The position numbers and the translations under genes were made by a program. DNA of 32,462 bases. Source: Planococcus sp. A6. Its GTDB lineage: Bacteria > Bacillota > Bacilli > Bacillales_A > Planococcaceae. The notes beneath the pieces are model-generated. The model was not told the DNA's origin, made no database searches, and saw only the letters and a list, made by a program, of their open reading frames with translations. Location of the stretch: NCBI RefSeq assembly GCF_028823615.1, contig NZ_JAPEHT010000027.1, positions 1 through 32,462 of the forward strand, read 5' to 3'. This document shows, in pieces, positions 8,489 through 32,106 of the stretch (position 1 is its first letter; each line of letters opens with the position of its first letter).

Positions 8489-8505
8489 TTCGTTCACCTG
8501 CCTCA

Positions 8506-15798: not shown

Positions 15799-15825
15799 GT
15801 CCATTTCTCCTTTTCACGCCCACTC

Positions 15826-17005: not shown

Positions 17006-18388
17006 TTAGAAAATCAACAGGCAGGCACCGATGACCAGACCGCCGTAAATCAAGGCGATCATCGTGTAGCCCATGATGTCGCGGATTTTCAAACCGGCAA
17101 TCGCGAGCAGCGGAATCGCCCAGAATGGCTGGATCATATTCGTCCAGCTATCGCCCCAGGCTACAGCCATGACGATTTTTGCAGGATCGACGCCCATTTC
17201 GAGCGCTGCGGGAAGCATGATCGGCGCCTGGACCGCCCATTGGCCGCCGCCTGATGGGATAAAAATGTTCAAGATTCCTGCCGATAAGAAGGTGAAGAGC
17301 GGTAAAGTCGTTTCATTCGAAATATCAATGAAGAAATTCGACATCATGACAGCAAGCCCCGACGCTCCGAGCATGCCCATGATTCCTGCATAGAACGGAT
17401 ATTGCAACACGAACTGGCCGACGCTGCTGACGGATTTCAATAATCCTTCCGCCAGTTCACGGACATTGCTGAACATGAGAAGCGCGGCCGTCAGGAAAAT
17501 CAAGTTGACGGTATTCAAATCGAGCGAGAAGCCATTCATATAGAAATGATTAATCAAATAACTTAAGCCGAGGAATCCGCCGATCAATGGAATGAGGCGC
17601 GATTTTTCGATTTTGTCATTCGGATAATCCTCATGATCTTGCGGCGCCTCTTCTGTGACCGGCTCTTCCAAACGTGCTGGATCCACCAGATAACGGTCTT
17701 TCGGGTTGCGTGGATGGATAAAGCGCATGACGAAAGGAAGCGTGAAGAACAAGATCACCACAATCGCGATATTCAATGCCGATAACAGCGTTTCCGATAT
17801 GGGAACAATTCCGATATCCCCTTCAAACACATGCCCCGCAGTAGCGACAAAAAGTGCCGGGGAAGAAGATAATCCGCCTTCCCAGATTAAAAACCCTGAA
17901 TATCCTGCAGCGACGAGCACACGGTAATCGACGTCACGCACTTTCTTTGCGACCAGCTTCGCAATAATTCCCGCAACGACCAAGCCGAATGCCCAGCTGA
18001 TGAGAGATGCGCCAAGCGCCGTGAACGTCACCATCAAAATCGCGGAATTCGGTCCTTTAGGGATGCCGGCGATTTTCTCAAGCGCCTTCGAAACGGTCGG
18101 CGTCAAAGCCAGCGCATAACTCAATACGAAGGTCGTGATGATCTGGGCCGTGAAAGTTAAAAGGCCCCACATGCCGTCGCCCCAATGGCGCATCATATCG
18201 ATCGGGCCAGAATCGGTGAAAAGCACCCCTGCAATGAATGCGATCGCCGTCAGCAATACCGCGAATACGAATGCATCCGGCAGCCATTTTTCGGCAATTT
18301 TGGCGAACACATTCGCTATTTTTGCGAGCGGATTGTTTTGCTGTTTCTCCAACACTGGATCTCTTTCCGTATTTCTTCCATTTGCCAT
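17006..18388 (-). CDS. Short-chain fatty acid transporter, AtoE family
   Basis: A roughly 460-residue membrane transporter with the AtoE layout. There is a hydrophilic N-terminus of about 35 residues, then a dozen hydrophobic segments with a charged loop around 205-240. Characteristic stretches include KWLPDAFVFAVLLTAIAF, SWAFGLVVAGI, FIPSGGGQWAVQAPI and GDSWTNMIQPFWAIPLL. In E. coli AtoE takes up short-chain fatty acids. A first ATG lies at 18403, three bases after the SDR stop. The ATG at 18388, eight bases after a G-rich GGGGGGA site, is preferred. With the TRAP genes this cluster has two possible acid importers. Confidence 0.88.
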   Translation of the reverse strand: MANGRNTERDPVLEKQQNNPLAKIANVFAKIAEKWLPDAFVFAVLLTAIAFIAGVLFTDSGPIDMMRHWGDGMWGLLTFTAQIITTFVLSYALALTPTVSKALEKIAGIPKGPNSAILMVTFTALGASLISWAFGLVVAGIIAKLVAKKVRDVDYRVLVAAGYSGFLIWEGGLSSSPALFVATAGHVFEGDIGIVPISETLLSALNIAIVVILFFTLPFVMRFIHPRNPKDRYLVDPARLEEPVTEEAPQDHEDYPNDKIEKSRLIPLIGGFLGLSYLINHFYMNGFSLDLNTVNLIFLTAALLMFSNVRELAEGLLKSVSSVGQFVLQYPFYAGIMGMLGASGLAVMMSNFFIDISNETTLPLFTFLSAGILNIFIPSGGGQWAVQAPIMLPAALEMGVDPAKIVMAVAWGDSWTNMIQPFWAIPLLAIAGLKIRDIMGYTMIALIYGGLVIGACLLIF

Positions 18389-18406
18389 CGTCTTTCCCCC
18401 CATTAT

Positions 18407-19180
18407 CTAATTGGCGGTCCATCCGCCATCTACATAAAGAATTTGCCCCGTTACATAGCTCGATGCTTCCGACGCCAGGAATAAAGCAGGGCCGATCATC
18501 TCGCCTGCTTCACCCATGCGTTTCAGCATGGTTCTGCTGACCAATTTTTCCAGCCGTTCCGGATCCTGTAGAAACGGTTCTGTCATCGGTGTTTTAATAT
18601 AAGCGGGTGCCAAGGCGTTGACGCGGATATTATGTTCAGCGAGTTCCGCTGCCCACACTTTCGTCAATTGATTGATCCCACCTTTGCTTGCCGCATAGCT
18701 CGTCTGGAGCGGATTGCCGACTTGCCCCATAATGGATGAAATATTGATGATGCAGCCTCCTTTTTGGCCGATCATCCGCTTTGCTGCTTGCTGGCCGACC
18801 AAGAAGATGCCTTTCAAATTGGTACCGAGCACCCGGTCCCAGTCTTCTTCCTCCACTTCCACCAAAGGTTTACGGATGTTCATTCCGGCATTATTGACGA
18901 GAATGTCCACTCCACCGAAATCGGCATCGATGAATTCGAATAACTCAGCGACGGCTTGTTTGGATGTCACATCCGCCGATTTCCAGGAAACATCAAGGTT
19001 TCGGCTATTCATTTCGTCTGCCGCTTCCTTGAGCACTGTTTCATCGCGTCCGGTAATGAGCACTTTAGCACCGGCATGGGCGAGCCCAGCTGCAATCGCC
19101 AGGCCAATTCCTTTGCTGCCACCGGTAATGAGCGCTTTTTTTCCAGTCAGGTCGAAACTTGGATAAGTAAATTCCTCCAC
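18407..19180 (-). CDS. Short-chain dehydrogenase/reductase (SDR)
   Basis: A roughly 257-residue classical SDR. It has nucleotide-binding TGGSKGIG, DVTS, NNAGMNIRKP, catalytic INISS with SYAASK (Ser-Tyr-Lys), PAYIKTPM, and the C-terminal ILYVDGGW. It oxidises or reduces a hydroxyl or keto group with NAD(P). In this operon a hydroxyacyl substrate is likely, and LvaD of the levulinate pathway is also an SDR. An ATG at 19198 has no ribosome site. GGAGAGGGAG lies a few bases before the GTG at 19180, so GTG is taken as the start. It is 50 bases from the MaoC gene upstream and 18 from atoE downstream. Confidence 0.85.
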   Translation of the reverse strand: MEEFTYPSFDLTGKKALITGGSKGIGLAIAAGLAHAGAKVLITGRDETVLKEAADEMNSRNLDVSWKSADVTSKQAVAELFEFIDADFGGVDILVNNAGMNIRKPLVEVEEEDWDRVLGTNLKGIFLVGQQAAKRMIGQKGGCIINISSIMGQVGNPLQTSYAASKGGINQLTKVWAAELAEHNIRVNALAPAYIKTPMTEPFLQDPERLEKLVSRTMLKRMGEAGEMIGPALFLASEASSYVTGQILYVDGGWTAN

Positions 19181-19230
19181 GCTTATCTCCCTCTCCATTT
19201 ATAGAAATATTCCGCCAATTAATTGTGCAG

Positions 19231-19590
19231 TCATGCCAATTCAAAGCTTCCGACGAGTTTTCCCGTTCCGGAAGCGTCCTTGATCTGCAGTTCCCCAGCA
19301 TTGTCTGTTGTCAGCATTCCTTCGATGATGAATGCTTCACCTGCATGCGCCATCCCGACAAAACGCACGGTGAATTTACTCAGCTTCCTTCCCGGAAACC
19401 ACTCATCCAGTGCATCTGCAGCCCAGCCCATCAATAACATGCCGTGGACGATCGGTTCCTTGAACCCTTTACTGCGGGCAACTTTCGGAACCGTATGGAT
19501 TTCATTAAAATCGCCTGAAGCACCCGAATAACGCACCATGTCAATCGGTGCAAGTGCTTTCTTATGAATGTCCGGCAATTTCTGCGCCAT
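19231..19590 (-). CDS. MaoC-like dehydratase, catalytic hot-dog subunit
   Basis: A 119-residue single hot-dog domain with the hydratase 2 motif YSGASGDFNEIHT (Asp27, His32) and HGMLLMGWAAD. It is expected to hydrate trans-2-enoyl thioesters to the (R)-3-hydroxy form or the reverse. Its first 29 bases overlap the end of the MaoC N-type gene. The two proteins probably form one heteromeric enzyme, like mycobacterial HadA/HadB (inference). The stereochemistry would differ from that of the crotonases of the same operon. Confidence 0.85.
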   Translation of the reverse strand: MAQKLPDIHKKALAPIDMVRYSGASGDFNEIHTVPKVARSKGFKEPIVHGMLLMGWAADALDEWFPGRKLSKFTVRFVGMAHAGEAFIIEGMLTTDNAGELQIKDASGTGKLVGSFELA

Positions 19591-20014
19591 GCTGTTCCCG
19601 CCTTTCGATTAAAGTTGCCCGCCCGATGCGAACCACTTCATTTTCTTGATTGCGGTATGTCGTTTCAATCTGATAAAATCGTTTGTCTTTTTTATCGAAT
19701 CGATCAGTCAGCACGGACTTTGCTGAAATAACATCCCCGCTGATGATGTCTTTTTCGTATTCGAAACTTTGCTCGCCGTGCAGTATGTCATTTGGGTCCA
19801 ATCCCCAAACCTTGAATAATTGATAAAAATCCCGTTCGTTCCAGAAATCGATGACTGTCGTGTATGTAGGCGGAGCCGGGATATCCCGATACCCTGCATC
19901 CAATGCTGCTTCTTTGCTGAAATAAACCGGATTCCTTAAACCGAGAGCCAACGCGAACTCCCGGATTTTTCCCGCTTCTACGCGGAACGGCGCGTAATGA
20001 AATTCCTGATTCAT
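19562..20014 (-). CDS. MaoC N-terminal-type hot-dog protein (dehydratase partner subunit)
   Basis: A 150-residue protein of the FAS1-like/MaoC_dehydrat_N class: YAPFRVEAGKIREFALALG, then PVYFSKEAAL, PAPPTYTTV, and ILHGEQSFEYEKDIISGDVISAKS. It lacks the Asp/His dyad, so it should act as the substrate-binding partner of the downstream MaoC subunit. GAGGAGGG lies seven bases before the ATG. A 69-base gap, with a small CACTT/AAGTG hairpin at 20047-20060, separates it from the phosphotransferase gene. Confidence 0.82.
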   Translation of the reverse strand: MNQEFHYAPFRVEAGKIREFALALGLRNPVYFSKEAALDAGYRDIPAPPTYTTVIDFWNERDFYQLFKVWGLDPNDILHGEQSFEYEKDIISGDVISAKSVLTDRFDKKDKRFYQIETTYRNQENEVVRIGRATLIERREQHGAEIAGHS

Positions 20015-20083: not shown

Positions 20084-21136
20084 TTATAACACTTCGCCCC
20101 TGCGCGTCCGGTTCGCCATATCGATCAAGTTCGCGACTGCCTTATTCAAATGTCGGAAACGCTCATCTTCAATTTCCCCGTTTTTCCAACGATAGTAAAT
20201 CTGCTGCAAAATCCCGGCCAGCTTGTAAAACCCGAACGCTAGGTAATAGTTGATATTCGACACATCGCGCCCGCTTTGCTTTGCGTATTCGTCCACGAAC
20301 TCCTTGCGGCTGTAGAAGCCTGGCTGGCTCGAGATGATGTTTATGCCGATATCCGCATCTTCCGCCTGGCCCCAGTAGGCTAAAGTCGAGCCGACATCGC
20401 TCAGCGGATCGCCGATTGTCGACAATTCCCAATCAAGAACGCCCGTCGCAAGCCCTGGGCTTTCTTCGTCAATCACCATATTGTTCAATTTAAAATCGTT
20501 ATGGACGATTGTGGTTTCTTCATTAACAGGGATATTCGCCGTAAGCCATTGCTCCAGCTCTTCAAGCCCTTCGACATCATCGGTTTTGGAGTGATGATAG
20601 CGTTTGATCCAGCCTTTCACTTGGCGCTCCATGAATCCTTCCGGTTTGCCCATCTCGGCGAGGCCGGCTTCTTTGTAGTCGATTGCCTGCAGTTGGACCA
20701 ATGTCGAGATGACATTCTTCGAAATAATCGGTCCTGCTTGTTCCGGGCTTCCGTATACTTCCGGAAGTTCTTCATCGATGACAAGCCCCTGTTTTTTCTC
20801 CATGACGTAAAAATGCTTGTCCATCACTTCGGGATCTTCACAATACACATATGGTTCAGGTGCCAGCGGGAACACTGGATGCACTTTTTCGAGCATCTTG
20901 AATTCGCGTTCCATATCATGCGCTTTGGGCGGAATCTCACCAAACGGCGGACGTCTCAAAACGCCTTCCCAGTCCCCGATCTGCAGGAGATAAGTCAAGT
21001 TAGAATAGCCTTCAGAAAATTGGCGGACCCTCATCTCGCCTTCTGGCAACTGGGGAAGCGCATTGCGCAGGAAACGTTCGACTTTTGTCCAATCTACTTC
21101 CTGTGTTTTCTTCGTTTTCGGTGTTGCATCGCTCAT
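20084..21136 (-). CDS. Phosphotransferase family protein, ACAD10/11 kinase-domain type (LvaA-like)
   Basis: A roughly 350-residue APH-fold kinase. The ATP site includes FSEGYSNLTYLL and VLRRPPFGEIPPKAHDMERE, which resembles the N-terminal part of animal ACAD11. The catalytic loop HNDFKLNNM (H212, D214, N219) and the metal-binding LDWELSTIGDP (D235) are intact. In ACAD10/11 and in P. putida LvaA this fold phosphorylates the 4-hydroxyl of 4-hydroxyacyl-CoA. An aminoglycoside substrate is unlikely given the context. An ATG at 21151 is in frame; GGAGGG is eight bases from the ATG at 21136, chosen here. Its expected partner, an ACAD10/11-type dehydrogenase, is encoded at 29098-30324 in the same operon. 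Confidence 0.85.
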   Translation of the reverse strand: MSDATPKTKKTQEVDWTKVERFLRNALPQLPEGEMRVRQFSEGYSNLTYLLQIGDWEGVLRRPPFGEIPPKAHDMEREFKMLEKVHPVFPLAPEPYVYCEDPEVMDKHFYVMEKKQGLVIDEELPEVYGSPEQAGPIISKNVISTLVQLQAIDYKEAGLAEMGKPEGFMERQVKGWIKRYHHSKTDDVEGLEELEQWLTANIPVNEETTIVHNDFKLNNMVIDEESPGLATGVLDWELSTIGDPLSDVGSTLAYWGQAEDADIGINIISSQPGFYSRKEFVDEYAKQSGRDVSNINYYLAFGFYKLAGILQQIYYRWKNGEIEDERFRHLNKAVANLIDMANRTRRGEVL

Positions 21137-21152
21137 ATTGATGCCCTCCATG

Positions 21153-21972
21153 TCATTCGTATTTAAAGAATCCTTCTCCCGACTTTCTGCCGAGCTTGCC
21201 GGCGCGCACGTATTGTTTCATCAAAGGCGCCGGTCTGTATTTCGAGTCTTTCGTTTCTTCGTAAAGTGTCTCAGCCACAAACAGCATCGTATCGAGCCCG
21301 ATCAAATCAGCCAATGCTAGCGGGCCGATTGGATGGTTTGCGCCGAGTTCCATGCCCTTGTCGATATCTTCCGCTGATGCGATGCCCTCCATCAACACAA
21401 AGACCGCTTCGTTGATCATCGGCGTCAGCTTCCTTCACGGAAATCGCGGTCTTGTTGAAGCGCTGCGCAATTTCATGCGCCCGCTCAAAGGTTTCGTCGC
21501 TCGTCTGTTCAGCACGAATGATTTCGACCAGTTTCATGATCGGCACCGGGTTGAAGAAATGCATGCCGACGACTTGTGCGCTGCGGCCCGAGCTTGCAGC
21601 CATTTCTGTAATGCTGAGGCCTGATGTGTTCGTCGCGAAAATCGTTTTCGCTTGGCAGATGCGATCGAGCTTTTCGAATAATTCCTTTTTCGGCTCAAGT
21701 TTTTCGATGATCGCTTCGATGACGATATCCATCTCTTTTAAGTCATTGATCTCCGTGCTGGGGCGGATCCGATTCCATACGCTTTCACGTTGCTCTTCGG
21801 TCATGCGCCCTTTTTCGACATTGCGGCGCAGCGTTTTGTCGATGCGCTGCATTCCGCGTTCCAGGCCAGCCGGATCGAGGTCGTATAAAATGACGTCCAT
21901 GCCGCCTTCTGCACCGACTTGCGCGATCCCGTTCCCCATTGTGCCTGCGCCGATTACTGCCAATCGCTCCAT
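21153..21972 (-). pseudogene. 3-hydroxyacyl-CoA dehydrogenase, broken by a deletion
   Basis: The upstream frame (ATG 21972, GGGGG eight bases before it) encodes the Rossmann half: ERLAVIGAGTMGNGIAQ, EAIIEKLEPKKELF, ATNTSGLSITEMA, and GMHFFNPVPIMKLVEII with the catalytic His. It breaks off after [11 protein letters not shown] at about 21431. The downstream frame resumes at [26 protein letters not shown] and ends [10 protein letters not shown]. The conserved PGF..NR..P link that normally joins these blocks is missing. Comparison with the family suggests a loss of about 26 bases, which also shifts the frame. As sequenced, the enzyme would lack its dimerisation domain. It normally oxidises (S)-3-hydroxyacyl-CoA with NAD. 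No intact copy is in the window. Confidence 0.9.
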
Positions 21973-21988
21973 TTGTTCATCCCCCTCA

Positions 21989-22771
21989 TCATTTCCCTGT
22001 GAAATTCGGTTTGCGTTTTTCAATGAAGGCTTGAACGCCTTCATCCATGTCTTCCGTGCCGACTAGCTTCGCGAACATCCGCGTTTCCAAAAACTGTGCT
22101 TCGGATAGAGGCAAATCAATGCCCTCATCAATCGCTTCTTTTGCAAAGGTGACTGCAAGCGGCCCTTTTCCGGCAATTTGTTCCGCCAATGCATAAGCTG
22201 TTTCAAACGCTCTCCCTTCTGGCACCACCCGCTCAACGAGTTTCGCTTCGTAAGCTTCCTGTCCATTGAGCCAAACTCCCGCGAGGACAAGTTCCTTGGC
22301 TTTGCCGGGTCCGACCAGACGGGAAAGCCGCTGTGTTCCGCCGTACCCTGGCAATATGCCAAGACCCGTTTCAGGCAGCCCGAATTTTGCGTTTTGTTCG
22401 GCAATGCGTATGTCGCAGGCAAGTGCCAGTTCCAACCCTGCACCAAGCGCTAAGCCATGAACTGCGCAGATGACAGGGGCTTTCCCTTCCGTCAGCTTGT
22501 CGAAAATCCGTTTTCCCTTTTCCAGCAATTCGATGCCACCCATTTTAGTCAGTTCCGGAAATTGGCTGATGTCTGCACCGGCAGCAAATGCCTTGGCACT
22601 TGCCGAGCGCAGCACGACCGCCCGCATCTCTGTTTCCTGCAACGCGTCGATCGCTTGTTCCAACTGTTCCAAAACCGCATCGCCCAGTACATTGAGCGGC
22701 TGATGGTCCAGTGTCACCACCGCGATAGAATCATTTGTTTCCAGATGTACAGCATCCCAATGCTTCACCAT
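21989..22771 (-). CDS. Enoyl-CoA hydratase (crotonase)
   Basis: A 260-residue crotonase with both catalytic glutamates of true hydratases. E114 is in GAGLELALACDIR and E134 in GLPETGLGILPGYGGTQR, spaced 20 residues apart as in the mitochondrial enzyme. The oxyanion-hole segment FAAGADISQF and the tail GVQAFIEKRKPNFTGK are typical. GGAGG lies six bases before the ATG. It lies 12 bases after the comB-like gene and 16 bases before the broken hydroxyacyl-CoA dehydrogenase gene, so two consecutive beta-oxidation steps are adjacent. Confidence 0.92.
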   Translation of the reverse strand: MVKHWDAVHLETNDSIAVVTLDHQPLNVLGDAVLEQLEQAIDALQETEMRAVVLRSASAKAFAAGADISQFPELTKMGGIELLEKGKRIFDKLTEGKAPVICAVHGLALGAGLELALACDIRIAEQNAKFGLPETGLGILPGYGGTQRLSRLVGPGKAKELVLAGVWLNGQEAYEAKLVERVVPEGRAFETAYALAEQIAGKGPLAVTFAKEAIDEGIDLPLSEAQFLETRMFAKLVGTEDMDEGVQAFIEKRKPNFTGK

Positions 22772-22783
22772 AGGGTTCCTCCT

Positions 22784-23527
22784 TTATTCAGCATTTCTCA
22801 CTTGATCGCGCTCTTTGACGATCATGCCGTCTTCATAGACCGGCACCACATCCAGCTTTTCGTGATGGCGGATGACGAACTCTGCCGCTTCAGGAAAATT
22901 AAAGCGCTTGAGCAAATCCGCCGTTTCACTGTCCAGCAATTCGTTGAAGCCTTCCGCATAAGAATTGCGGTACGCTTTTTGGGCAAGCTTCGCAGCATCC
23001 GATAGCTCATAGCCTCCCCACCGCGCCAGATGTTCGACCAGTTGGCCGGCACCGATAAAATCTTCCATCGAGAAACGGTCATCATTTCCTGAACAGACGA
23101 GCACAATCGATGAGCCATCCTGTTCCTGGTGGATGCGTTCAGCTACACGGTGCCCATTCACCAACGAGGAGATGTACAATCGCTTAGCATCTTTCGCTTT
23201 TTCGATGGCAATCGTGCCATTCGTTGAACAAATGATGGCTGCTTTCCGCTCCGGACTGTATTTGAGTGCGCATGGATCAGGATAATCAAAGCCCTCGAGC
23301 CCTTCGCCTTTCGACTCGCCGAGCAATAGATGCTCGTTCTCCTGCAACTTCGACAGTTCGAGTGCCCGCTCGCTTCCGAGAACCGCATGCACTGGCTCGT
23401 AATTACGATCCAATAGGAAAATGATTGTCGACGTTGCCAGGAACACATCGATCACTGCAGCTGTGCATCCTGCAAGCCGCTCTTCCCTCACTGCTTCCTT
23501 TTGGGTAATAACGTGTATTTTTCTCAT
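22784..23527 (-). CDS. Divergent ComB-like (2-phosphosulfolactate phosphatase family) protein
   Basis: A 247-residue protein of the ComB family, Mg-dependent phosphatases known from coenzyme M and sulfolactate synthesis. The family blocks are visible in order: VIDVFLATST (25-34), GESKGEGLEGFD (70-81), STNGT (101-105) and CSGNDDRFSMEDFIGAG (145-161). Two usually conserved positions differ: DVFRAT is DVFLAT, and the GFDLGNSP loop reads GFDYPDPC. The substrate may therefore not be phosphosulfolactate. No comA homologue is near. It sits inside an acyl-CoA operon between tetR and a crotonase gene, with gaps of 18 and 12 bases. The family call is fairly sure; the reaction is not. Confidence 0.75.
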   Translation of the reverse strand: MRKIHVITQKEAVREERLAGCTAAVIDVFLATSTIIFLLDRNYEPVHAVLGSERALELSKLQENEHLLLGESKGEGLEGFDYPDPCALKYSPERKAAIICSTNGTIAIEKAKDAKRLYISSLVNGHRVAERIHQEQDGSSIVLVCSGNDDRFSMEDFIGAGQLVEHLARWGGYELSDAAKLAQKAYRNSYAEGFNELLDSETADLLKRFNFPEAAEFVIRHHEKLDVVPVYEDGMIVKERDQVRNAE

Positions 23528-23545
23528 TCCATCAATTCCTTCAAA

Positions 23546-24139
23546 TCAGGATGTTTTCATCAGCATTTTCAATAACAGATCAGCGTAGATTTCTTCTACA
23601 TCTTCCGGCGTATACTTGCCATCAGGTGAATACCACACTTGAATCCAGTTGGTCGCCCCCAAAATGATCATGCGCGCCATTTTCTTCTCGGGCACTTCAA
23701 ATTCTCCGCGTTCGGCGCCTTCGTCGATGATCCGATCGAACAACTCCGCATATGCATCGCGTTTTTCGATAATTTCTGGAATATTGTCCTCGGAAAAAGT
23801 CGTTTCGGGTTTGACAATCAAGTTGAAAACTTCTTTTTCGCGGATTGCCACTTCAATGTGATGGCGCAAAGCCATGCGCATCTTCTCAACAGACGATACC
23901 TCCGCCTGAACAATGTCTTCCATCTTTTCTTTCGCTTCCGTCAAGATCAAGTCGTGGCACCGGTACAATAATTCTTCCTTGTTCTTGAAGTAATAATAGA
24001 GCGCCCCTTTTGTCATCAATAATTCCGCGGCAATGTCTTCCATCGTTGCATTATGATAGCCCTGCCGTGAAATGACCAAACTGGCTGAACGAAGGATATC
24101 CTCCCGTTTCTTTGCTGCTTTTCGTTCCCGTAGATTCAT
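23546..24139 (-). CDS. TetR-family transcriptional regulator
   Basis: A 197-residue TetR repressor. The N-terminal helix-turn-helix runs about 12-58 (KREDILRSASLVISRQGY, then DIAAELLMTKGALYYYFKNKEELL), followed by an all-helical ligand domain. Its place inside an acyl-CoA degradation operon resembles FadR (YsiA)-type regulators, which release DNA on binding acyl-CoA. It lies 24 bases after dctQ and 18 before the comB-like gene, so it is transcribed with the genes it probably controls. The palindrome over the thiolase promoter is a candidate target (inference). Confidence 0.88.
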   Translation of the reverse strand: MNLRERKAAKKREDILRSASLVISRQGYHNATMEDIAAELLMTKGALYYYFKNKEELLYRCHDLILTEAKEKMEDIVQAEVSSVEKMRMALRHHIEVAIREKEVFNLIVKPETTFSEDNIPEIIEKRDAYAELFDRIIDEGAERGEFEVPEKKMARMIILGATNWIQVWYSPDGKYTPEDVEEIYADLLLKMLMKTS

Positions 24140-24163
24140 TCCACTCCCTCATTTACTGTTTGA

Positions 24164-24712
24164 TTAGAGATCCTCCACTGGCCCTTTCGGTTCTTCCATC
24201 AATAGGCTCGGTTTCTTCTCCAGTACATTTCGAATCAGGATAAACAGGTTTTCGACGACAATCATTCCAAACGCAATCGGAATCAAGAAGAAAAACGGAT
24301 ACAGCGGATACAATGTTCCTGCCGCCGGGAACGCAATTTCCCGCTCGAGCCCGTCCATCGCATAAGCCCAGCTGAACTGCACGATTAGCACCAGAACGAA
24401 AAGCTCCAGCAAAATCATCAGCAGGATGATCGCTTTTTGCATCCCGGCCCCGAAACGGTCGAGAAGTAAATCCATCTTCGGCAAAACACCCGACGAATAA
24501 ACATACGCGAGACCGGGGAATACGACGAGGGGCATCATGTAATTCTGGATGATTTCAAACCCTCCGCGGATCGAACTCGAGAACAGCGTCCGCATCACCA
24601 CATCGTAGACAATCAATAACATCATCGCTACAACCGCGATGCCGCTGATCCAAATGCCGATAAGCTTTAAATAGTGAAAAAGCCGATACGCTTTCCATAC
24701 ACCTTTCATCAT
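24164..24712 (-). CDS. TRAP transporter small permease (DctQ-type)
   Basis: A 182-residue four-helix membrane protein: hydrophobic segments at about 17-38, 58-75, 92-113 and 136-160, with YDVVMRTLF and IQNYMMPLVVFPGLAYV as typical DctQ stretches. It joins DctM to form the TRAP permease that imports organic acids with sodium or protons. AAAGGAGG precedes the ATG, with a second ATG immediately after. It starts 15 bases after the dctM stop. Confidence 0.88.
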   Translation of the reverse strand: MMKGVWKAYRLFHYLKLIGIWISGIAVVAMMLLIVYDVVMRTLFSSSIRGGFEIIQNYMMPLVVFPGLAYVYSSGVLPKMDLLLDRFGAGMQKAIILLMILLELFVLVLIVQFSWAYAMDGLEREIAFPAAGTLYPLYPFFFLIPIAFGMIVVENLFILIRNVLEKKPSLLMEEPKGPVEDL

Positions 24713-24727
24713 GCTTCCCTCCTTTTG

Positions 24728-26050
24728 CTACATTGAATTCGGCAGCCAAGTGGCAAGCCCCGGGAATGCGATCATCAATCCTGTCACGACCACCATCGCC
24801 ACCAAAGCAAAGACAGTCGTCAAACGGAAAATCGAACCTGAGTTGATGCCGCTGACACCGGCGACCGCATAGACGCTTAACCCCACCGGAGGCGTGATCA
24901 AGCCGATTGTACAAATGACTGAAACAAATACACCGAACCATAGAATATCGACTTGCAGTTCCTGAATGATCGGTAGAACGACCGGAATCGACATCAAAAT
25001 GACCGCTGCGCCTTCGATGAACATGAACATGATGAACAAGACGATGGAAATGACAATCAGAACAAGAACCGGTGTGTCCATGATCGGTTCGATCAATTCA
25101 ATCAAACGTCTCGGCAGCAAGGACAAGGAAACAAAGCGTCCGAAGATCTGCGCGCCGATCATGATGATCATGACCATCCCTGTCAGTTTCACCGTCTCAA
25201 TCAAAGAGGTTTTAAAGAACGCAAAATTGACTTTCCCCAATAAAAATGCGGCAATCAAACCGACGAACGCTCCGACAGCACCCGCTTCCGTCGGCGTGAA
25301 GACACCTGAATAAATGCCCCCGAAAATGATGAATACAATCGCAACGGCAATGATACTGGCGATGATCAAGCGAATGACCGGCACCTTTTCTTCCGTTACC
25401 GTTTCCTCGAACATTTCTTCCTGTGTCGCCTGTTGCTTCTTTTTGCCCAATTGGAAATAGACGAGCATGACAGCGATAAACACCAACATCGTCAAAATCC
25501 CTGGGATGAATGCACCGACGAACAGGCTTCCGACCGGTGTTTCAGTAGCGACCCCGTAAAGGATCAAGATAATACTCGGCGGGATGATTCCTGAGAGCGA
25601 CCCGCCGGAAGCGGCGACTGCCCCGGCGAGCGGCGCACTATACCCATGCTTGCGAAGTTCCGGAATGGCAACTTGTCCAAGTGATGCGGAAGTAGCTGTA
25701 CCCGATCCAGAAACCGCCCCCAACAGCCCTCCGATAATCAAGGTCAACACGCCGAGTAGGCTGTTCTTTCCTTTCGACACTTTATGGACCATATAAAAGA
25801 TGTCCTGGACGAGCCCCGATTGCAGGATGAATTGTGCCATTAACACAAACAACGGGATGGTCGTCAAAGTATAACTGGCCACGCGGTTGAACGGTTCGTT
25901 GCCGAGAAGACCGGGCAGAATGCCGAACCCTTCCAAAAGAATCAGCCCGATAATGCCGCTCGCCAGCAATACGGAGTGGATATACAGCCCCGCCAGCAGC
26001 AAAACGATCATCATGGCCAAAATGATTCCAATAACCAGTAAATTGTCCAT
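24728..26050 (-). CDS. TRAP transporter large permease (DctM-type)
   Basis: A 440-residue protein with about a dozen membrane segments and DctM hallmarks: TIPLFVLMAQFILQSGL, GGLLGAVSGSGTATSASLGQ, GASGG-like AASGGSLSGIIPPSI, and GLITPPVGLSVYAVAG near the end. A charged loop occurs around 205-220. It is the transport channel of the TRAP system. AAGGAGG lies a few bases before the ATG. A terminator-like hairpin separates it from dctP upstream. Confidence 0.92.
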   Translation of the reverse strand: MDNLLVIGIILAMMIVLLLAGLYIHSVLLASGIIGLILLEGFGILPGLLGNEPFNRVASYTLTTIPLFVLMAQFILQSGLVQDIFYMVHKVSKGKNSLLGVLTLIIGGLLGAVSGSGTATSASLGQVAIPELRKHGYSAPLAGAVAASGGSLSGIIPPSIILILYGVATETPVGSLFVGAFIPGILTMLVFIAVMLVYFQLGKKKQQATQEEMFEETVTEEKVPVIRLIIASIIAVAIVFIIFGGIYSGVFTPTEAGAVGAFVGLIAAFLLGKVNFAFFKTSLIETVKLTGMVMIIMIGAQIFGRFVSLSLLPRRLIELIEPIMDTPVLVLIVISIVLFIMFMFIEGAAVILMSIPVVLPIIQELQVDILWFGVFVSVICTIGLITPPVGLSVYAVAGVSGINSGSIFRLTTVFALVAMVVVTGLMIAFPGLATWLPNSM

Positions 26051-26076
26051 TCTCTGGCCTCCTTGCCTCCATTATG

Positions 26077-26116
26077 AAAAAAGAGGATGAGCGACACCTC
26101 AATGCGCTATCCTCTT
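26077..26116 (-). terminator. Intercistronic terminator-like hairpin between dctP and dctM
   Basis: Stem arms 26081-26088/26109-26116 and 26091-26093/26105-26107 are followed on the minus strand by six T (26082-26077). It lies ten bases after the dctP stop. It probably acts as a partial terminator, giving more binding protein than permease. Confidence 0.7.
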
Positions 26117-26125
26117 CTTGCTTGT

Positions 26126-27235
26126 TTATTCCAAATTCATGACCGCTTCTGGCACTTCTCCGCCTTCTTCAATCAAGAGATCTCTCCACATTTTGACTAC
26201 TTCATTGCCCGGCAACCCATTATCTTCCAGGAGTTTCGCGTAATCTGTCCATGTATCTTCAATGCCTGTATTGAAGTGATCTTGCACTTCCTGGTCCAAT
26301 TCACTGAACTCGACGAACTTCCCGCCGTTTTCTTCATTTTCAGGAATGATCGCTTCAGCACGGTCCATCCATTCTTGGGCACCGGCTTCGAAAATGTCTT
26401 CATTGGCTTGAGTCATCGCTTCCTGGACATTTTCCGGGAGTTCATCCCATCTGCTTTGGCTCATGCCGATAAATGCATTGAAATGGCCGAAGTTGATGCC
26501 CGTGACCGTATAGCGGAACAAATCCTGGAAGCCGTATCCTGTCCAGTCGGCGATGCTGTAGAATGCGCCTTCAAACGTGCCGCGGCTGAGGGCGTCGTAG
26601 ATTTCGACAGCTGGCATGGTCACGCTATTGATTCCGGTTTTCGCGGCATACATTTCATGGATGCGGGAAGGTGTGCGAAGGGATGTTCCTTCGACATCGC
26701 TAACTGAATTGAATTCATGCCCTGTCGTGGAAATGGAATATTCCTGTGTCGTCGAAACTGGGAATACTTTGAAATCGCCAAATTGCATCTCCGTATACGT
26801 TTGCCCATCCGCCAATTCTTCTTCACTCTCCAGAAGCTTTTTCCAGGCGTTGGAAGCGATCATGGTATCGGAATGGTTGAGCGGCAACATCGTCACTTCG
26901 GCCATCGGGAATTGGTCCGGTTGATAGATCGGCAACACCAAAGCAACATCGACCGTCCCGCTTTGAAGGGCATCGCCTTCATCCGGAACCGAAACCAATT
27001 CTCCGCCAGTGAAAGTTTCAAATTGCACTTGGCCATCTGTCAATTCCTCGACCCGCTCCATCCAGGGAACCATCGAAGCTTCCCACCAGGCATGCTGCGC
27101 GCTTAATCCCGTGGCTGCGCGAAGTGTGATTGTTTCCCCTTCAGCGCCGCCCTCAGAATCTCCACCACCACATCCTGCAAGTAGAAGGGTCATTGCTGCA
27201 CCTGCTGCTAAAAAACGAGAACCGTGTTTTTTCAT
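26126..27235 (-). CDS. TRAP transporter solute-binding lipoprotein (DctP-type)
   Basis: A roughly 369-residue extracytoplasmic binding protein. The N-terminus is a lipoprotein signal (MKKHGSRFLAAG, lipobox LLAGC) followed by a Gly/Ser/Glu-rich linker. The mature part has LRAATGLSAQHAWWEASMVPW, VQFETFTGGEL, and SLRTPSRIHEM with the ligand-contacting Arg of TRAP binding proteins. The C-terminal part is helical. The frame opens at 27274, but GGAGG is eight bases from the ATG at 27235, which starts the signal peptide. The ligand is likely a carboxylic acid related to the substrate of this cluster. A consensus cre site lies upstream in the short gap. Confidence 0.9.
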   Translation of the reverse strand: MKKHGSRFLAAGAAMTLLLAGCGGGDSEGGAEGETITLRAATGLSAQHAWWEASMVPWMERVEELTDGQVQFETFTGGELVSVPDEGDALQSGTVDVALVLPIYQPDQFPMAEVTMLPLNHSDTMIASNAWKKLLESEEELADGQTYTEMQFGDFKVFPVSTTQEYSISTTGHEFNSVSDVEGTSLRTPSRIHEMYAAKTGINSVTMPAVEIYDALSRGTFEGAFYSIADWTGYGFQDLFRYTVTGINFGHFNAFIGMSQSRWDELPENVQEAMTQANEDIFEAGAQEWMDRAEAIIPENEENGGKFVEFSELDQEVQDHFNTGIEDTWTDYAKLLEDNGLPGNEVVKMWRDLLIEEGGEVPEAVMNLE

Positions 27236-27278
27236 AGAAAATACCTCCATCCGGTTTTTGTGCCGTGGCCGCATCTAG

Positions 27279-27293
27279 TGGTAACGCTTACAT
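27279..27293 (-). promoter_or_regulatory. Consensus CcpA cre site upstream of dctP
   Basis: Minus-strand ATGTAAGCGTTACCA fits WTGNAANCGNWNNCW at every defined position. It fills the gap between the PaaG-like gene and dctP. It could block transcription into the TRAP genes when preferred sugars are present. No clear promoter was found in the gap. Confidence 0.65.
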
Positions 27294-28069
27294 CATTTCC
27301 CTTGAAATTCAGGTTTGCGTTTCTCAAAGAAAGCAGCGATGCCTTCTTTATGGTCGTCGGTTTGGAGAAGCAGCGTCTGGATGAGATTTTCTTGCATGAA
27401 TGCCGCTTCCTGCGGCAATTCATCCAAATGGTTGACCAGGTATTTGACGTATTTATTGCTGATGGCTGGACCGACAGCGAGAAATTCCGCAAATTCCATA
27501 GCGGCCTGGCCGACATCCCCGCTCGAGATGCGATTGATCAAGCCGTGATCTTGCGCTTCTTGTGCGCTGACCACTTTTGCGGAGGCGATCCATTCCTTGG
27601 CGAGCGGCGGGCTGATTCGTTTGCGGAGCGCTTTGATGAGCCCGAGATCGGGAATCAACCCGATATTCGAAAAGCTCAAAGCGAATTTTGCGTCTTCGTC
27701 TGCCACGATGAAATCCGCAGCCAGCGCCAAGCTGAAACCTGCTCCTGCGGCATAGCCATGAACCGCGGCGATAATGGGTTTATCGCTGTCCATCAAAGCT
27801 TTCGATAAGTTCGAGACAAAATCGATCCATTCAGCGACTTCGTGCGCATTGCCCAATGACTTCATCGAGGCAATGTCGCCCCCTGCAGAAAATGCTTTCC
27901 CTTCCCCTGATAGGACGATGGCTCTGACAGCTGGATCTCCTTCTAATCGCTTGAGCGCTGCGAGCATTTCTTCGACCATCTCCCGCGATAAGGCGTTCAG
28001 TTTATCCGGCCGGTTCATGTGGAGCTTTGCGATCGCTCCGTTCACTTCTGTCTGGACAAGATTTCCCAT
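27293..28069 (-). CDS. Enoyl-CoA isomerase/hydratase family protein, PaaG-like
   Basis: A 258-residue crotonase-fold protein with LNRPDKLNAL-like N-terminus (MNRPDKLNALS), FSAGGDIASMKS and tail GIAAFFEKRKPEFQGK. The first hydratase glutamate is replaced by Ser113 (GAGFSLALAADF), and the second position is Phe133. Asp141 in GLIPDLG matches the catalytic Asp of PaaG and delta3,delta2-enoyl-CoA isomerases. It is therefore more likely an isomerase than a hydratase. GGGGGA precedes the ATG. It lies 13 bases after the MDR oxidoreductase gene. Confidence 0.83.
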   Translation of the reverse strand: MGNLVQTEVNGAIAKLHMNRPDKLNALSREMVEEMLAALKRLEGDPAVRAIVLSGEGKAFSAGGDIASMKSLGNAHEVAEWIDFVSNLSKALMDSDKPIIAAVHGYAAGAGFSLALAADFIVADEDAKFALSFSNIGLIPDLGLIKALRKRISPPLAKEWIASAKVVSAQEAQDHGLINRISSGDVGQAAMEFAEFLAVGPAISNKYVKYLVNHLDELPQEAAFMQENLIQTLLLQTDDHKEGIAAFFEKRKPEFQGK

Positions 28070-28082
28070 AGGCTTTCCCCCT

Positions 28083-29063
28083 TTATGGTGTAACTACTAA
28101 TTTCCCATATGTTTTTCGGCTGCCGAGCTGATCGAGTGCGTCGACGACTTCATCGAAGGCGAATTCTTTATAGATGAGCGGCTTGATGGCTCCTTCTTTA
28201 TACAGTGCCATCAACTCATGATGGGCTTTCATCACTTGGTCCGGCATCAAATTGCGGAACAAGCCGAAATGGACGCCGACAATCGAGTAATTTTTGATCA
28301 AGGCATGGTTGGTCGGTGCATCGGCGATTCGCCCTCCGGCAAAACCGATAACCAAGATACGCCCTTCAAAAGCGATGCATTTTCTTGAACGGTCGAAGGT
28401 ATCGCCGCCGACCGGATCGAAAATGACATCCGCTCCTTTGCCGCCGGTCGCTTCTTTCACTTTCGGGACGAAATCCTCTTCACGGTAATTGATGACGATA
28501 TCCGCTCCAAGTTCTTTGCATACCGCAAGCTTATCCGCGCTTCCGGCAGTCGCGATGACAGTAGCGCCTGCTGCTTTTCCTAGCTGGACCGCAGCGGACC
28601 CGACACCCCCTGATGCGGCATGGACCAGCAATACTTCGCCTTTTTTTAAATGGCCTGAGCGATGCAAGGCGAAATAAGCCGTTTGGTACGTAATGAATAG
28701 CGCTGCCGCTTCCGCATACGAAAGTTCATCCGGAATCGGGAAAATCCCTTCTTGTTTGACGACTGCCCATTCGGCGAGGCCGCCGCTTGGCAGCATTGGC
28801 GTCGCGAGAACGCGCTGCCCGATTTCGCCCTGCGTGCCTTCACCGAGCGCTTCGATCGTTCCGGCAATCTCCGCTCCTGGCGTAAAGGGCAGTTCCGGAC
28901 GTTCCTGATATTTTCCTTGGCATTGCAGAATATCGAAGAAATTGAGCGCTGCCGCTTCCACTTTGATGAGCGCTTCGCCCGCGCCTGGGCTTGGCTTCGG
29001 CAATTCTGCAACGGCTAAAGCCTGTTCCGGGTCGCCGAGCTCTGTCACTTGCCACGCTTTCAC
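28083..29063 (-). CDS. Quinone oxidoreductase-like MDR family protein (operon copy 1)
   Basis: About 326 residues. The GroES-like part contains NFFDILQCQGKYQ, PFTPGAEIAGTI and GQRVLATP. The Rossmann part contains LVHAASGGVGSAAVQLGKAAG, and VINYREEDF and DVIFDPVGGDTFDRS follow. No zinc ligands are evident. It probably reduces an enone or quinone with NADPH. ATG codons occur at 29114, 29075 and 29069. GGGAG (29076-29072) is only two bases from the ATG at 29069 but eight from a GTG at 29063, giving MKAWQVTELG, so GTG is preferred. A paralogue of the same class closes the gene set at 16006-16989. Confidence 0.83.
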   Translation of the reverse strand: MKAWQVTELGDPEQALAVAELPKPSPGAGEALIKVEAAALNFFDILQCQGKYQERPELPFTPGAEIAGTIEALGEGTQGEIGQRVLATPMLPSGGLAEWAVVKQEGIFPIPDELSYAEAAALFITYQTAYFALHRSGHLKKGEVLLVHAASGGVGSAAVQLGKAAGATVIATAGSADKLAVCKELGADIVINYREEDFVPKVKEATGGKGADVIFDPVGGDTFDRSRKCIAFEGRILVIGFAGGRIADAPTNHALIKNYSIVGVHFGLFRNLMPDQVMKAHHELMALYKEGAIKPLIYKEFAFDEVVDALDQLGSRKTYGKLVVTP

Positions 29064-29097
29064 TGTCATCACTCCCATCCGCTTTGTTTGCAAACTG

Positions 29098-30324
29098 TTA
29101 TTGCCGTGCTTCATTCGCTTTCAATTGCTCACGCAGTTCAAGGCGCCCAACATCGCGCAAGTGGACTTGGTCCGGCCCATCGACAAGACGCAGTGTTCGT
29201 GCGTTTGCGTAATGTTCTGCGAGCGGGAAATCTTCTGTCAGCCCGGCTCCGCCGAATACTTGCATCGCCCGGTCGATGACATTGATCGATACGCGCGGAG
29301 CGGAGATTTTAATCATGGCGATTTCTTTGCGTGCGGCTTTCGCACCGTGTTCATCGATCTTGTGCGCTGCGTTCAAGGTCAAAAGCCGTGCCTGTTCGAT
29401 TTCGATGCGGCTTTCGGCGATGATTTCCTTGATGACGTCTTTTTCCGCCAGTGTCGAACCGAAGGCGACGCGGCTTTCCGCCCGTCTGCACAATAATTCA
29501 AGCGCACGTTCGGCAGCGCCGATTGCACGCATACAGTGATGGATGCGTCCTGGCCCGAGACGGCCTTGTGCGATCTCGAATCCTCGTCCTTCGCCAAGCA
29601 GCATATTGCTCACCGGGACGCGGACATTTTCATAATGCACTTCCGCATGCCCTTGCGGCGCATCATCATAGCCGAACACAGTGAGCGGACGGACAATCTT
29701 GACGCCTGGCGTATCGAATGGCACAAGGATCATCGACTGCTGCTTGTGCTTTTCGGCATCGGGGTCGGTTTTCCCCATGACAATCGCGATGCTGCAGCGC
29801 GGGTCCATAGCGCCTGTCGTCCACCACTTCTTAGCGTTGATGACGTATTCATCGCCGTCACGGACGATGCTGCTTTGGATATTAGTTGCGTCGGATGAAG
29901 CGACATCCGGCTCCGTCATGGAAAAGCACGAGCGGATCTCGCCGTTCAATAAAGGCTCGAGCCATTGTTTTTTCTGCTCATCCGTGCCGTATTTCACGAA
30001 CACTTCCATATTGCCGGTATCCGGTGCGTTGCAGTTGAAGATTTCCGGAGCGATGAGTGAACGTCCCATAATTTCACATAAATGGGAATACTCGTAATTC
30101 GATAAGCCTGCTCCGTATTCCGGATGGTCGAGAAAGAGGTTCCATAAGCCCTGCGCTTTCGCTTTTTGTTTCAGCTCTTCGATGATCGGCGGGATGGTCC
30201 AGCGGTCGCTTGTAGTTTCTTTGTATTCTTTTACTGTCTGTTCAGCCGGATAGACAAAGTCATCCATGAATTTCAGCAGTTCCTGGCGTAATTGTTCCGC
30301 TTTTGGCGATAATTCCTTAAGCAT
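29098..30324 (-). CDS. Acyl-CoA dehydrogenase, ACAD10/11 type (LvaC-like)
   Basis: A 408-residue flavoprotein with the acyl-CoA dehydrogenase fold: N-terminal helices, [16 protein letters not shown] (133-148, FAD/substrate loop), KKWWTTGA (165-172), [30 protein letters not shown] and the C-terminal [11 protein letters not shown]. Several stretches are nearly those of animal ACAD10/11. Where medium-chain enzymes have the catalytic Glu in YEGT, this protein reads DGPDQVH (382-388), as is usual for the ACAD10/11 group. Members of that group remove phosphate from 4-phosphohydroxyacyl-CoA to isomerise 4-hydroxy into enoyl or 3-hydroxy acyl-CoA. The start overlaps the ligase stop by eight bases. 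Confidence 0.9.
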
Positions 30325-31906
30325 TTGATCGGCCCCCTGTTTCTTTTAATGTGTTTTTCAAGATCTTACCTGACGCATTGCGCGGCAGGCTTTCCATTAG
30401 CACAAACTGTTCCGGCACCTTGAATTTTGCGAGCGTCTTCTTGCAATGCGCCTGCAACTCCGTGAAATCTTCGGAATCCAGTTTCGGCCCGACGACAAAC
30501 GCTTTCACTTTCTCGCCGAACACCGGGTCCGGTTCTCCAATGACAGCTGCCTCGACGACGTCCGGATGGCTTTTCAGCGCATCTTCCACTTCGATGGAGA
30601 AAATTTTCTCGCCGCCGCGGTTGATCATGTCTTTTTTGCGGTCACGGATATAGACATAGCCGTCGTCATCCATAATGCCGAGGTCTCCTGAATGCCAGTA
30701 GCCCTCAGTGAAGCTCGACTGATTGGCGGCCGGATTGTCCCAATATTCCTTGATGATCATCGGCCCTTTGATATACAATTCGCCGGATTCCCCGTTCGGC
30801 ACAGTGCGTCCTTCCGGGTCGACGATTTTGATGTCCGCGACGTCGACCGGCAAACCGACCGATGTCACTTTCGATTCCGGATAACTCACCGGCATCAACG
30901 TGGCAGGAGATGTTGTTTCCGTCGCCCCGTACGCATTGTGGAGCTGTGCATTGGGGAACGCTTTTTTCAGCATTTGGAAGGTCTGCTGGTAAATCGGGGA
31001 ACCGCCGAACGCCACTTTCTTCACAAATCCGAACGAATGCTGCTGGAATTCTTCGCTCGTCGACATCATGATGAAAATGGTCGGTACATTGAACAAAAAA
31101 TTGATTTCGTGTTTCAAGATCAGCTCGATATAGCGTTCATTTTGATAGCGTTTCATACTGTAGACCGTGCCGCCGACATAAAACATATGGAGCAGTTGCC
31201 CGACCAGCCCTGTCACATGGAACATCGGGACAGCGACCAGCGTTTTCATCGAATCATCGGTCTCAAAGCGGTGTTTGTAATTCATCACGCTGTGCACTGC
31301 GTTGATATGCGCCAGCACTGCGCCTTTAGGCCGGCCGGTCGTCCCCGATGTATAGAGGATGAACGCGCCATCTTGTTCATCGACGTCCACTTGTTCAAAT
31401 GCAGCCGACTCATCCAGCAATTGGCCATAGGAATTCTTGTCCCCGATGATAAAGAGTTCCGGTTGTTCCGTCTCCTGCAGCCCACTGTTTTGAGTGGCTT
31501 CTTTCACTTTTTCCGCATATTCTGTTTCCACAATCAAGAGCTTTGGCTTGGAATGGCCGATAATGTATTGCAGCTCTTCGACTTGCAGTTTGACATTGAT
31601 CGGTACCATGATCGCCCCGGCCTTGGCACAAGCGAAGACGACGACTGGAAATTCAGCGCAGTTTCCGACCACCGCACCCACCCGGTCGCCCACTTGGATG
31701 CCGCGCTGCTGAAGATTGGCGGCAAGCGTGGTCGATTGCCCGTCAAGCTCCCGGTAGCTTAAAGTCTGTTGTTCCGTGACGACTGCCGGTTTTTCTCCGT
31801 AGCGCGCCACAGTATCTGTAAGCAATTGGCCGATTGTCGAAGGGCGCTGCGCAAACACCTTCACTTCTGCACGCCCAAAAAGTTCCATCGTTTCAATAGC
31901 TGCCAA
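30317..31906 (-). CDS. Fatty acid/carboxylic acid CoA ligase (AMP-forming)
   Basis: A 529-residue ANL-family enzyme, first gene of the large operon. Core motifs are intact: [12 protein letters not shown] (185-196), YGATET (326-331), [22 protein letters not shown], and the catalytic Lys514 in [10 protein letters not shown]. It activates a carboxylic acid to its CoA thioester via an acyl-AMP. Chain length cannot be read from the sequence. The start codon is TTG at 31906, seven bases after a perfect AAGGAGG; no ATG fits better. It overlaps the acyl-CoA dehydrogenase gene and is preceded by a SigA promoter with a cre-like site in the leader. Confidence 0.92.
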
Positions 31907-32073: not shown

Positions 32074-32106
32074 AAAAAAACTTCTGCCCGTTTTTGGACA
32101 GAAGTT
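32074..32106 (-). terminator. Terminator of the yebC-family gene
   Basis: An 11-base stem with one G-U pair (32079-32089 with 32096-32106) and a six-base loop is followed by seven T on the minus strand. Confidence 0.9.

Follow-up and report, generated by a model that had tools for sequence, protein, structure and literature searches.

The window examined here is contig C185 (32,462 nucleotides) of a 3.5 Mb draft genome in 265 contigs from Planococcus sp. A6, a Planococcus near P. citreus. It carries a tight run of 17 genes on the minus strand, from an acyl-CoA ligase (31906) to a second quinone oxidoreductase (16006), in which neighbors overlap slightly or stand no more than 75 bp apart; gap lengths were measured between the longest open reading frames (ORFs). 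The run includes a kinase and an acyl-CoA dehydrogenase (ACAD) related to the animal proteins ACAD10 and ACAD11, together with a gene of the PF04029 (ComB) family, and these three genes are the subject of this report. The run is probably transcribed as one operon, and from the families represented its products would make up a set for the import, activation and beta-oxidation of a carboxylic acid. The features are listed below from the upstream end.

32079..32106, minus strand: terminator-like hairpin upstream of the ligase, 11 pairs and a T tract, likely the upstream border of the run
30317..31906, minus strand: AMP-forming acyl-CoA ligase, first in the run (PF00501, E 7e-93), overlapping the ACAD gene by 8 bp
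29098..30324, minus strand: ACAD10/11-LvaC-type dehydrogenase, proposed to eliminate phosphate from 4-phosphoacyl-CoA (2wbi, E 7e-151; residue mapping)
28083..29114, minus strand: PIG3-type quinone/enoyl reductase family (PF00107, PF08240; TIGR02824 below its cut-off)
27293..28069, minus strand: enoyl-CoA hydratase/isomerase family (PF00378, E 1e-62)
26126..27274, minus strand: TRAP solute-binding protein DctP (PF03480, E 2e-30)
24728..26050, minus strand: TRAP large permease DctM (PF06808, E 5e-67)
24164..24712, minus strand: TRAP small permease DctQ (PF04290, E 5e-16)
23546..24139, minus strand: TetR-family regulator (PF17932, PF00440; best NCBIfam match Bacillus FadR, NF053878, below its cut-off)
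22784..23527, minus strand: protein of the PF04029 (ComB) family, candidate phosphatase-type partner of the kinase (PF04029, E 6e-48; 1vr0, E 3e-24)
21989..22771, minus strand: enoyl-CoA hydratase family (PF00378, E 2e-59)
21153..22044, minus strand: 3-hydroxyacyl-CoA dehydrogenase, frame lost inside the gene (PF02737; ORF comparison)
20084..21151, minus strand: ACAD10/11-LvaA-type kinase of the aminoglycoside phosphotransferase (APH) fold, proposed 4-hydroxyacyl-CoA kinase (PF01636, E 1e-42; 8v3v, E 1e-48)
19562..20014, minus strand: HadA-like MaoC-type dehydratase subunit (PF13452, E 3e-28)
19231..19590, minus strand: small MaoC-type dehydratase partner, 119 aa (PF01575, E 1e-16), overlapping the HadA-like gene by 29 bp
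18407..19198, minus strand: short-chain dehydrogenase (SDR), possible 4-oxoacyl reductase (PF13561, E 1e-65)
17006..18403, minus strand: AtoE-type short-chain fatty acid carrier (PF02667, E 3e-134)
16006..16989, minus strand: second PIG3-type oxidoreductase, end of the tight run (PF00107)
14617..15804, minus strand: BktB-like thiolase, 201 bp downstream of the run (PF00108, E 8e-92; BktB models below their cut-offs)
13722..14630, minus strand: nitronate monooxygenase/FabK-like flavoprotein (PF03060, E 3e-27)
13109..13744, minus strand: enoyl-CoA hydratase, shortened to 211 aa (PF00378)

A first-pass annotation had described the kinase and the dehydrogenase as separate genes of one run, belonging to the ACAD10/11 and LvaA/LvaC families and sharing the sequence details VLRRPPFGEIPPKAH and DGPDQVH. 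Both genes lie where it placed them, both stretches are present within regions aligned to ACAD11, and matches in the PDB agree with the family assignment. The best matches of the dehydrogenase are human ACAD11 (2wbi; 506 bits), with which it shares 57.7% identity (226/392) over the ACAD11 domain, and then mouse ACAD11 (8v3u and 8v3v); after these come 4hr3, annotated as a putative ACAD, at 452 bits and a next match at 156 bits, among the best 60 of 82 matches. In the alignment with ACAD11, R255, H263, R266 and D382 correspond to mouse ACAD11 R626, H634, R637 and D753 (numbers in the PDB chain are one lower). According to PMC12440821, R626, H634 and R637 lie beside the catalytic D753 and are conserved only in ACAD10/11 and LvaC. 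The aspartate D382 of DGPDQVH aligns with the EGTNEIQ stretch of ordinary ACADs, where it replaces the usual catalytic glutamate, and the protein also has the upstream arginine and an HCMR motif. This type of ACAD is single-copy in the genome, with one match at 926 bits and nine others at 134 bits or less.

The Arg-His-Arg-Asp pattern was found in ACADs at 60 of 79 named kinase loci (kept from 100 matching stretches) and not at the other 19. When the genomes of 16 of these 19 loci were searched together with that of locus L022, L063 excepted, all 16 genomes covered encoded an ACAD of 60-80% identity, and the pattern was kept, as HCMR or HAMR, in 20/20 ACAD loci from these genomes. At L022, the nearest ACAD with the pattern is 9 kb from the kinase and 43% identical. 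A second type of ACAD, about 40-50% identical to that of the window and with HAMR or HSMR instead of HCMR, mostly stands right before the kinase; it occurs at L028, L030, L031, L035-L038, L040, L042-L044, L046, L048, L050-L053, L055-L058, L060 and L078. The idea that this type has no phosphate-handling residues was rejected, as all four (Arg, His, Arg and Asp) are kept in stretches such as RLGPGRITHAMR or RLGPGRIYHSMR with DG(P/A)DEVH. The second ACAD type at L028 adjoins a gene for a sigma-54 activator (7262-8611, by Pfam), and sequence clustering groups similar genes at other loci.

The closest relative of the kinase in the PDB is 9o56, titled 'aminoglycoside phosphotransferase' (E 6e-110), followed by the kinase domain of mouse ACAD11 (8v3v), with which it shares 36% identity over 309 aligned positions; LvaA is reported to be 29% identical to ACAD10 and ACAD11, a value obtained by another method (PMC11342911). 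The APH-fold catalytic loop HNDFKLNN (HxD) and metal site DWELST (DWE) align with mouse ACAD11, and the kinase keeps the catalytic aspartate that is alanine in 8v3u. We propose from these matches that it may act on 4-hydroxyacyl-CoA. The kinase is single-copy in the genome and has a 99% identical counterpart in P. citreus DSM 20549. Relatives of the kinase are also carried on haloarchaeal plasmids (H62, H70, H72, H73, H80, H81 and H98); among their hosts is Haloferax mediterranei, for which growth on levulinic acid has been reported (PMC12455835).

Kinase and ACAD travel together across the family of the window. Among 121 family genomes, the kinase (E <=1e-40) was found in 48 and the ACAD (E <=1e-60) in 47, all 47 being shared, while 73 genomes had neither; the odd genome, G040, holds a kinase fragment only and no ACAD. 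The two genes are often close, and in G044 and G058 they are far apart or on different contigs. In a phylum sample of 378 Bacillota genomes the kinase is scattered, occurring in nine. The family, order and named-locus samples overlap and contain many close kin, and because all order-sample genomes listed belong to the family of the window, the order sample is not independent of the family sample.

The strongest new signal, missed by the first-pass annotation along with the paired MaoC genes and the broken 3-hydroxyacyl-CoA dehydrogenase, is the PF04029 gene, which lies 1.6 kb from the kinase in the same gene run. In the family sample, every PF04029 gene (24/24) is within 1.8 kb of the kinase, measured match to match, 20 of them within 150 bp, and none of the 73 genomes without the kinase has one. 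The overlapping order sample of 200 genomes gave 38 kinase-linked PF04029 genes out of 41; in the three exceptions, all from the genus of the window, the gene sits upstream of a hydratase-type gene, between a ligase-like gene (judged by eye) and an enoyl-CoA hydratase (Pfam on L124). PF04029 genes also lie within 3 kb of the kinase at 35 of the 79 named loci, including two of Rubrobacter, and at 4.7 kb at L059. The linkage extends to Thermoactinomycetaceae, Alicyclobacillus and Rubrobacter. The PF04029 gene may be upstream or downstream of the kinase, and the longest reading frames overlap in 13/49 linked cases. At the Marinithermofilum locus L073 there are two separate kinase-PF04029 pairs about 7 kb apart. 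In the phylum sample PF04029 was present in 203 genomes, among them all nine with the kinase, and stands beside it in six of the nine; since PF04029 is so common across the phylum, it is a subfamily and not the whole family that is tied to the kinase. No paper came up in a literature search that combined the name of PF04029 with those of acyl-CoA dehydrogenase and phosphotransferase, most subscription papers being outside its reach.

This subfamily can be recognized in sequence. A tree of 88 PF04029 proteins (50 linked and 38 unlinked) required three label changes, against a mean of 28.8 for shuffles, and none of 500 shuffles was as low. On one branch (98/94) stand 34 of the 38 unlinked proteins; the other four, L059 and L124-L126, fall among the linked ones. 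As the tree is midpoint-rooted and carries long-branch warnings (L121, L122, L070 with L119, and others), the linked group is one of few changes and not a proven clade. At the position of the arginine in the DxLRAT motif, 48 of 49 linked proteins and that of the window have leucine (Leu30 in the window), the remaining one, L047, having tyrosine. Among unlinked proteins 34/38 have the arginine, and leucine occurs in exactly the four that the tree places among linked rows. The solved members 1vr0, 2yyv and 2z0j all carry the arginine. Other positions do not differ in this way: D27, E71, N103 and D177 are invariant in 88/88, and N124 and D156 in 87/88. The domain of the window protein scores 163.5 bits against a Pfam cut-off of 26.4 and misses the NCBIfam equivalog cut-offs (best 137.5 versus 330 bits; TIGR00298, 92.4 versus 175.05), and no coenzyme M genes were seen among the operon genes annotated with Pfam. 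We read the kinase-linked PF04029 proteins as having a putatively intact phosphatase-like site with a changed choice of substrate. The DxLRAT arginine may define ComB activity.

Our preferred reading, to which we assign a probability of about 0.75, is that the operon burns a 4-hydroxy or 4-oxo acid by means of the kinase and the ACAD, and that the PF04029 protein partners the kinase specifically, most probably as a phosphatase. The TRAP system (DctP/M/Q) and the AtoE-type carrier, which are the two acid importers named by the first-pass annotation, would import a 4-hydroxy (or 4-oxo) carboxylic acid, and the ligase would join the acid to CoA; if the acid arrives in a 4-oxo form, the SDR may reduce it. 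(Ligase and SDR had both been named as part of the operon, and both exist, outside the span of 20084..30324 that it had given.) The kinase would then place a phosphate on the 4-hydroxyl of this acyl-CoA, and the ACAD, a protein of its own here, would remove the phosphate by an FAD-assisted internal redox reaction, yielding a 2-enoyl-CoA, the order reported in the published biochemistry of these families (PMC11342911, PMC12440821). Hydration by the enoyl-CoA hydratases or by the MaoC pair, followed by the action of the 3-hydroxyacyl-CoA dehydrogenase and then the thiolase, would complete beta-oxidation. The PF04029 protein would reset or restrain the kinase step, most likely by dephosphorylating stray phospho-hydroxyacids or wrongly phosphorylated acyl-CoAs and so preventing their build-up. 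Of these parts the route of 4-hydroxyacyl-CoA phosphorylation and elimination is well supported. Family membership, key residues, co-occurrence, linkage and the clustering of the linked subfamily in the tree are observations; from them we infer the transcription of the run as one operon, the substrate, the order of reactions and the reaction of the PF04029 protein.

Several observations weigh against this reading, mostly against the part given to PF04029. The gene is missing in 26 of the 48 kinase genomes of the family sample, so the pathway can dispense with it, and three of the nine kinase genomes of the phylum sample carry PF04029 only away from the kinase. Gene linkage, moreover, does not equal function. 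Since 30 of the 38 unlinked tree rows are the best Pfam scorers, from Bacillota outside the class of the window, and not a random draw, the contrast between arginine and leucine may exceed that of the whole family. The dehydrogenase motif is not universal either. Among 14 ACADs of plasmid kinase regions that were tested by pattern, HCMR was found in 11 and HCMR with DGxx(E/Q)VH in eight; the proteins of L138, L143 and L145 are without the HCMR stretch, and three Deinococcus proteins are without DGxx(E/Q)VH as written. Finally, the 3-hydroxyacyl-CoA dehydrogenase is broken in the assembly, so the Planococcus copy of the pathway may be impaired, or the draft may be in error.

Other phosphatase-type genes accompany the kinase beyond the range of PF04029. 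From 239 kinase-bearing plasmid records, 16 regions were chosen by hand, mostly one per genus (Deinococcus x3), and opened with flanks of 3.5-7 kb; their gene tables are incomplete. A histidine phosphatase is adjacent to the kinase or one gene away in eight of the 16: two Deinococcus, Ideonella, Streptomyces, Azospirillum, Pseudoalteromonas, Sulfitobacter and a Rhodobacteraceae. It is not listed in those of Cytobacillus, Rhodococcus, Cupriavidus, Sphingobium, Haladaptatus, Bosea, D. aetherius and Rhizorhabdus. In Rhizorhabdus the kinase does have a hypothetical gene next to it, but this was rejected as a phosphatase, since it matched an AMP-binding enzyme. All eight histidine phosphatases have RHGQA(S/T). 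A profile made from them had no match in loci L006-L084, and its sole match was in L121, a locus without the kinase; the plasmid collection, in turn, held a PF04029 relative (E <=1e-8) in one record, from Cetobacterium, outside the 16 opened regions. A histidine phosphatase gene has been reported beside an LvaA homologue in P. citronellolis, where no lvaB was found (PMC6692424). When histidine phosphatase was searched for in the literature together with both aminoglycoside phosphotransferase and acyl-CoA dehydrogenase, the sole match was a paper that by its title concerns DNA damage in Acinetobacter. Counting the HAD domain of ACAD10, our comparison finds three unrelated phosphatase-type families in the company of one kinase family.

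The main rival reading of the PF04029 protein makes it a subunit that binds or regulates the kinase without catalysis of its own, standing in place of the 12 kDa LvaB or of the HAD domain of ACAD10. That HAD domain is reported to restrain the kinase while having negligible phosphatase activity (PMC11342911), LvaB was pulled down with LvaA and was required for growth on levulinate (PMC6692424), and the linked PF04029 proteins have lost the DxLRAT arginine; however, other residues of the family are invariant in linked and unlinked members alike, and the histidine phosphatases beside other kinases retain the RHG motif (8/8). We consider such a subunit possible but clearly the less likely role. 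That linkage of PF04029 to the kinase is an accident of shared operon ancestry seems very improbable: many linked loci are indeed close kin (Planococcus) and the samples overlap, but both gene orders occur, gaps range between -121 bp and 1.7 kb, the loci come from two phyla and 17 named genera, and the L073 genome has two separate pairs.

As to the substrate, nothing in the operon fixes its chain length. The operon might be a Gram-positive counterpart of lva, with levulinate as its natural substrate, and the Halobacillus and Thalassobacillus loci L034, L041 and L049, with a run of ligase, SDR, AtoE, kinase and ACAD, resemble the lva parts list; in the window, too, ligase, reductase, kinase and ACAD stand in one gene run. 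Against this, no LvaR-type (sigma-54) regulator was found among the operon genes (556 bp upstream of the ligase are within the window), which have a TetR instead, and the SDR is a generic member of its family whose match pattern does not fix a substrate, the nearest solved structures being named hexonate and gluconate dehydrogenase. A literature search for Planococcus with levulin- returned matches with neither word in title or abstract. Levulinate as the natural substrate is therefore doubtful in our view, and of the proposal in the first-pass annotation of a 4-hydroxyacyl or levulinate-like route we retain the 4-hydroxyacyl-CoA chemistry, which fits the residues, the co-occurrence and the published biochemistry. 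It is still less probable that the operon serves another substrate, such as a branched, aromatic or dicarboxylic acid, with the kinase acting at another hydroxyl and the 4-hydroxy reading simply inherited from animal and Pseudomonas relatives. The transporters, ligase and SDR belong to broad families that would allow this, but every one of the residues tied to 4-phosphoacyl-CoA is conserved in the ACAD, and kinase and ACAD co-occur in the 121 genomes save for one kinase fragment.

Returning to the PF04029 protein as a phosphatase-type partner, a broader idea can be offered tentatively, at a little short of even odds. It is that 4-hydroxyacyl-CoA kinases belong to a kinase-phosphatase couple, in which unrelated folds have taken the phosphatase position on at least three occasions: the PF04029 subfamily in Bacillota and Rubrobacter, the histidine phosphatase of RHGQA(S/T) type in Pseudomonadota, Deinococcota and Streptomyces, and, in animal ACAD10, the HAD domain, which is now regulatory. 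Such a couple would reset misdirected phosphorylation or gate flux, and the PF04029 subfamily would have moved away from sulfolactate chemistry on losing one arginine. Why animal ACAD10 bears a HAD domain that restrains its kinase is described as an open question (PMC11342911). If the kinase is accompanied in bacteria by a phosphatase-family gene dedicated to it, small bacterial proteins make this question testable. The link would also offer a function for a set of genes annotated as 2-phosphosulfolactate phosphatase, and engineered levulinate or gamma-lactone use gains candidate parts from the operon, in a pathway seen in many genomes of the family (48/121).

Compared with known systems, the operon resembles the lva operon of Pseudomonas putida, as described in papers citing Rand et al. 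2017, in having a separate LvaA-type kinase and LvaC-type ACAD, a ligase, an SDR and a carboxylate carrier. It differs in its TRAP and AtoE carriers, its beta-oxidation set, its TetR in place of LvaR, the 8 kb between kinase and ACAD, and its PF04029 partner. An LvaB-like gene was looked for in two 111-aa Deinococcus genes, which had no Pfam match, and the small gene of the window operon is of MaoC type. Animal ACAD10 and ACAD11 have the same kinase and ACAD families, and the four mouse ACAD11 residues are kept in Planococcus; there, however, the two are fused, and ACAD10 has a HAD domain where Planococcus has the PF04029 protein. A stand-alone kinase and ACAD from Burkholderia, in another phylum (Q63VL0/Q63VL1), has been assayed and is reported to replace the domains of ACAD10 (PMC11342911). 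Separate genes are therefore not news, and we dropped the notion that the split state is unusual. What is new in the system, which the first-pass annotation had called plausible and under-described, is the operon with its PF04029 partner, the pathway itself being known in kind. The levulinate cluster of P. citronellolis LA18T likewise has a phosphatase-family gene beside the kinase, of the histidine phosphatase family rather than PF04029, and its authors suggest that it may strip phosphate from 4-phosphovaleryl-CoA (PMC6692424). ComB, the 2-phosphosulfolactate phosphatase, shares the PF04029 family and the invariant residues, and differs from the kinase-linked proteins at the DxLRAT arginine and in that coenzyme M genes are absent from the annotated operon genes.

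Neighboring genes at the named loci were called with a simple ORF picker, which returned nothing at L052, L053, L063 and L076 and overlooked the PF04029 gene at L014, L071 and L080; the PF04029 counts were taken from other scans. In the window, the ORF of the 3-hydroxyacyl-CoA dehydrogenase covers 21307-22044, and its C-terminal part continues in another frame to a stop at 21153; the gene is present in 13 of 16 relatives examined and is open there over 281-334 aa. The short hydratase at 13109-13744 matches close homologues over approximately residues 1-204, and these are 272-319 aa long in ten of 11 cases and 181 aa in L012. Relatives of the small MaoC gene were found near the kinase in 15 loci. 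The Planococcus relatives L009, L010 and L012 have a short version of the locus, in which the ACAD stands directly before the kinase and the thiolase, nitronate monooxygenase and hydratase come after the kinase; the locus has no TRAP or PF04029 genes, a further point against the preferred reading, and the three lend themselves to comparison with the longer version.

A scan for promoters and terminators found sites to be no more numerous than in shuffled sequence, only the long stem at 32079..32106 being notable. Fifteen plasmid SDRs were compared, with identities of 25-42%, and did not point to a substrate. The Deinococcus kinase/ACAD cluster at L135 has an SMP-30/gluconolactonase-family gene (1645-2733), which would fit entry from lactones. 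Beyond the likely end of the operon in the window, a gene on the minus strand (11336-12748) encodes a fusion of a metallo-beta-lactamase fold and a rhodanese.

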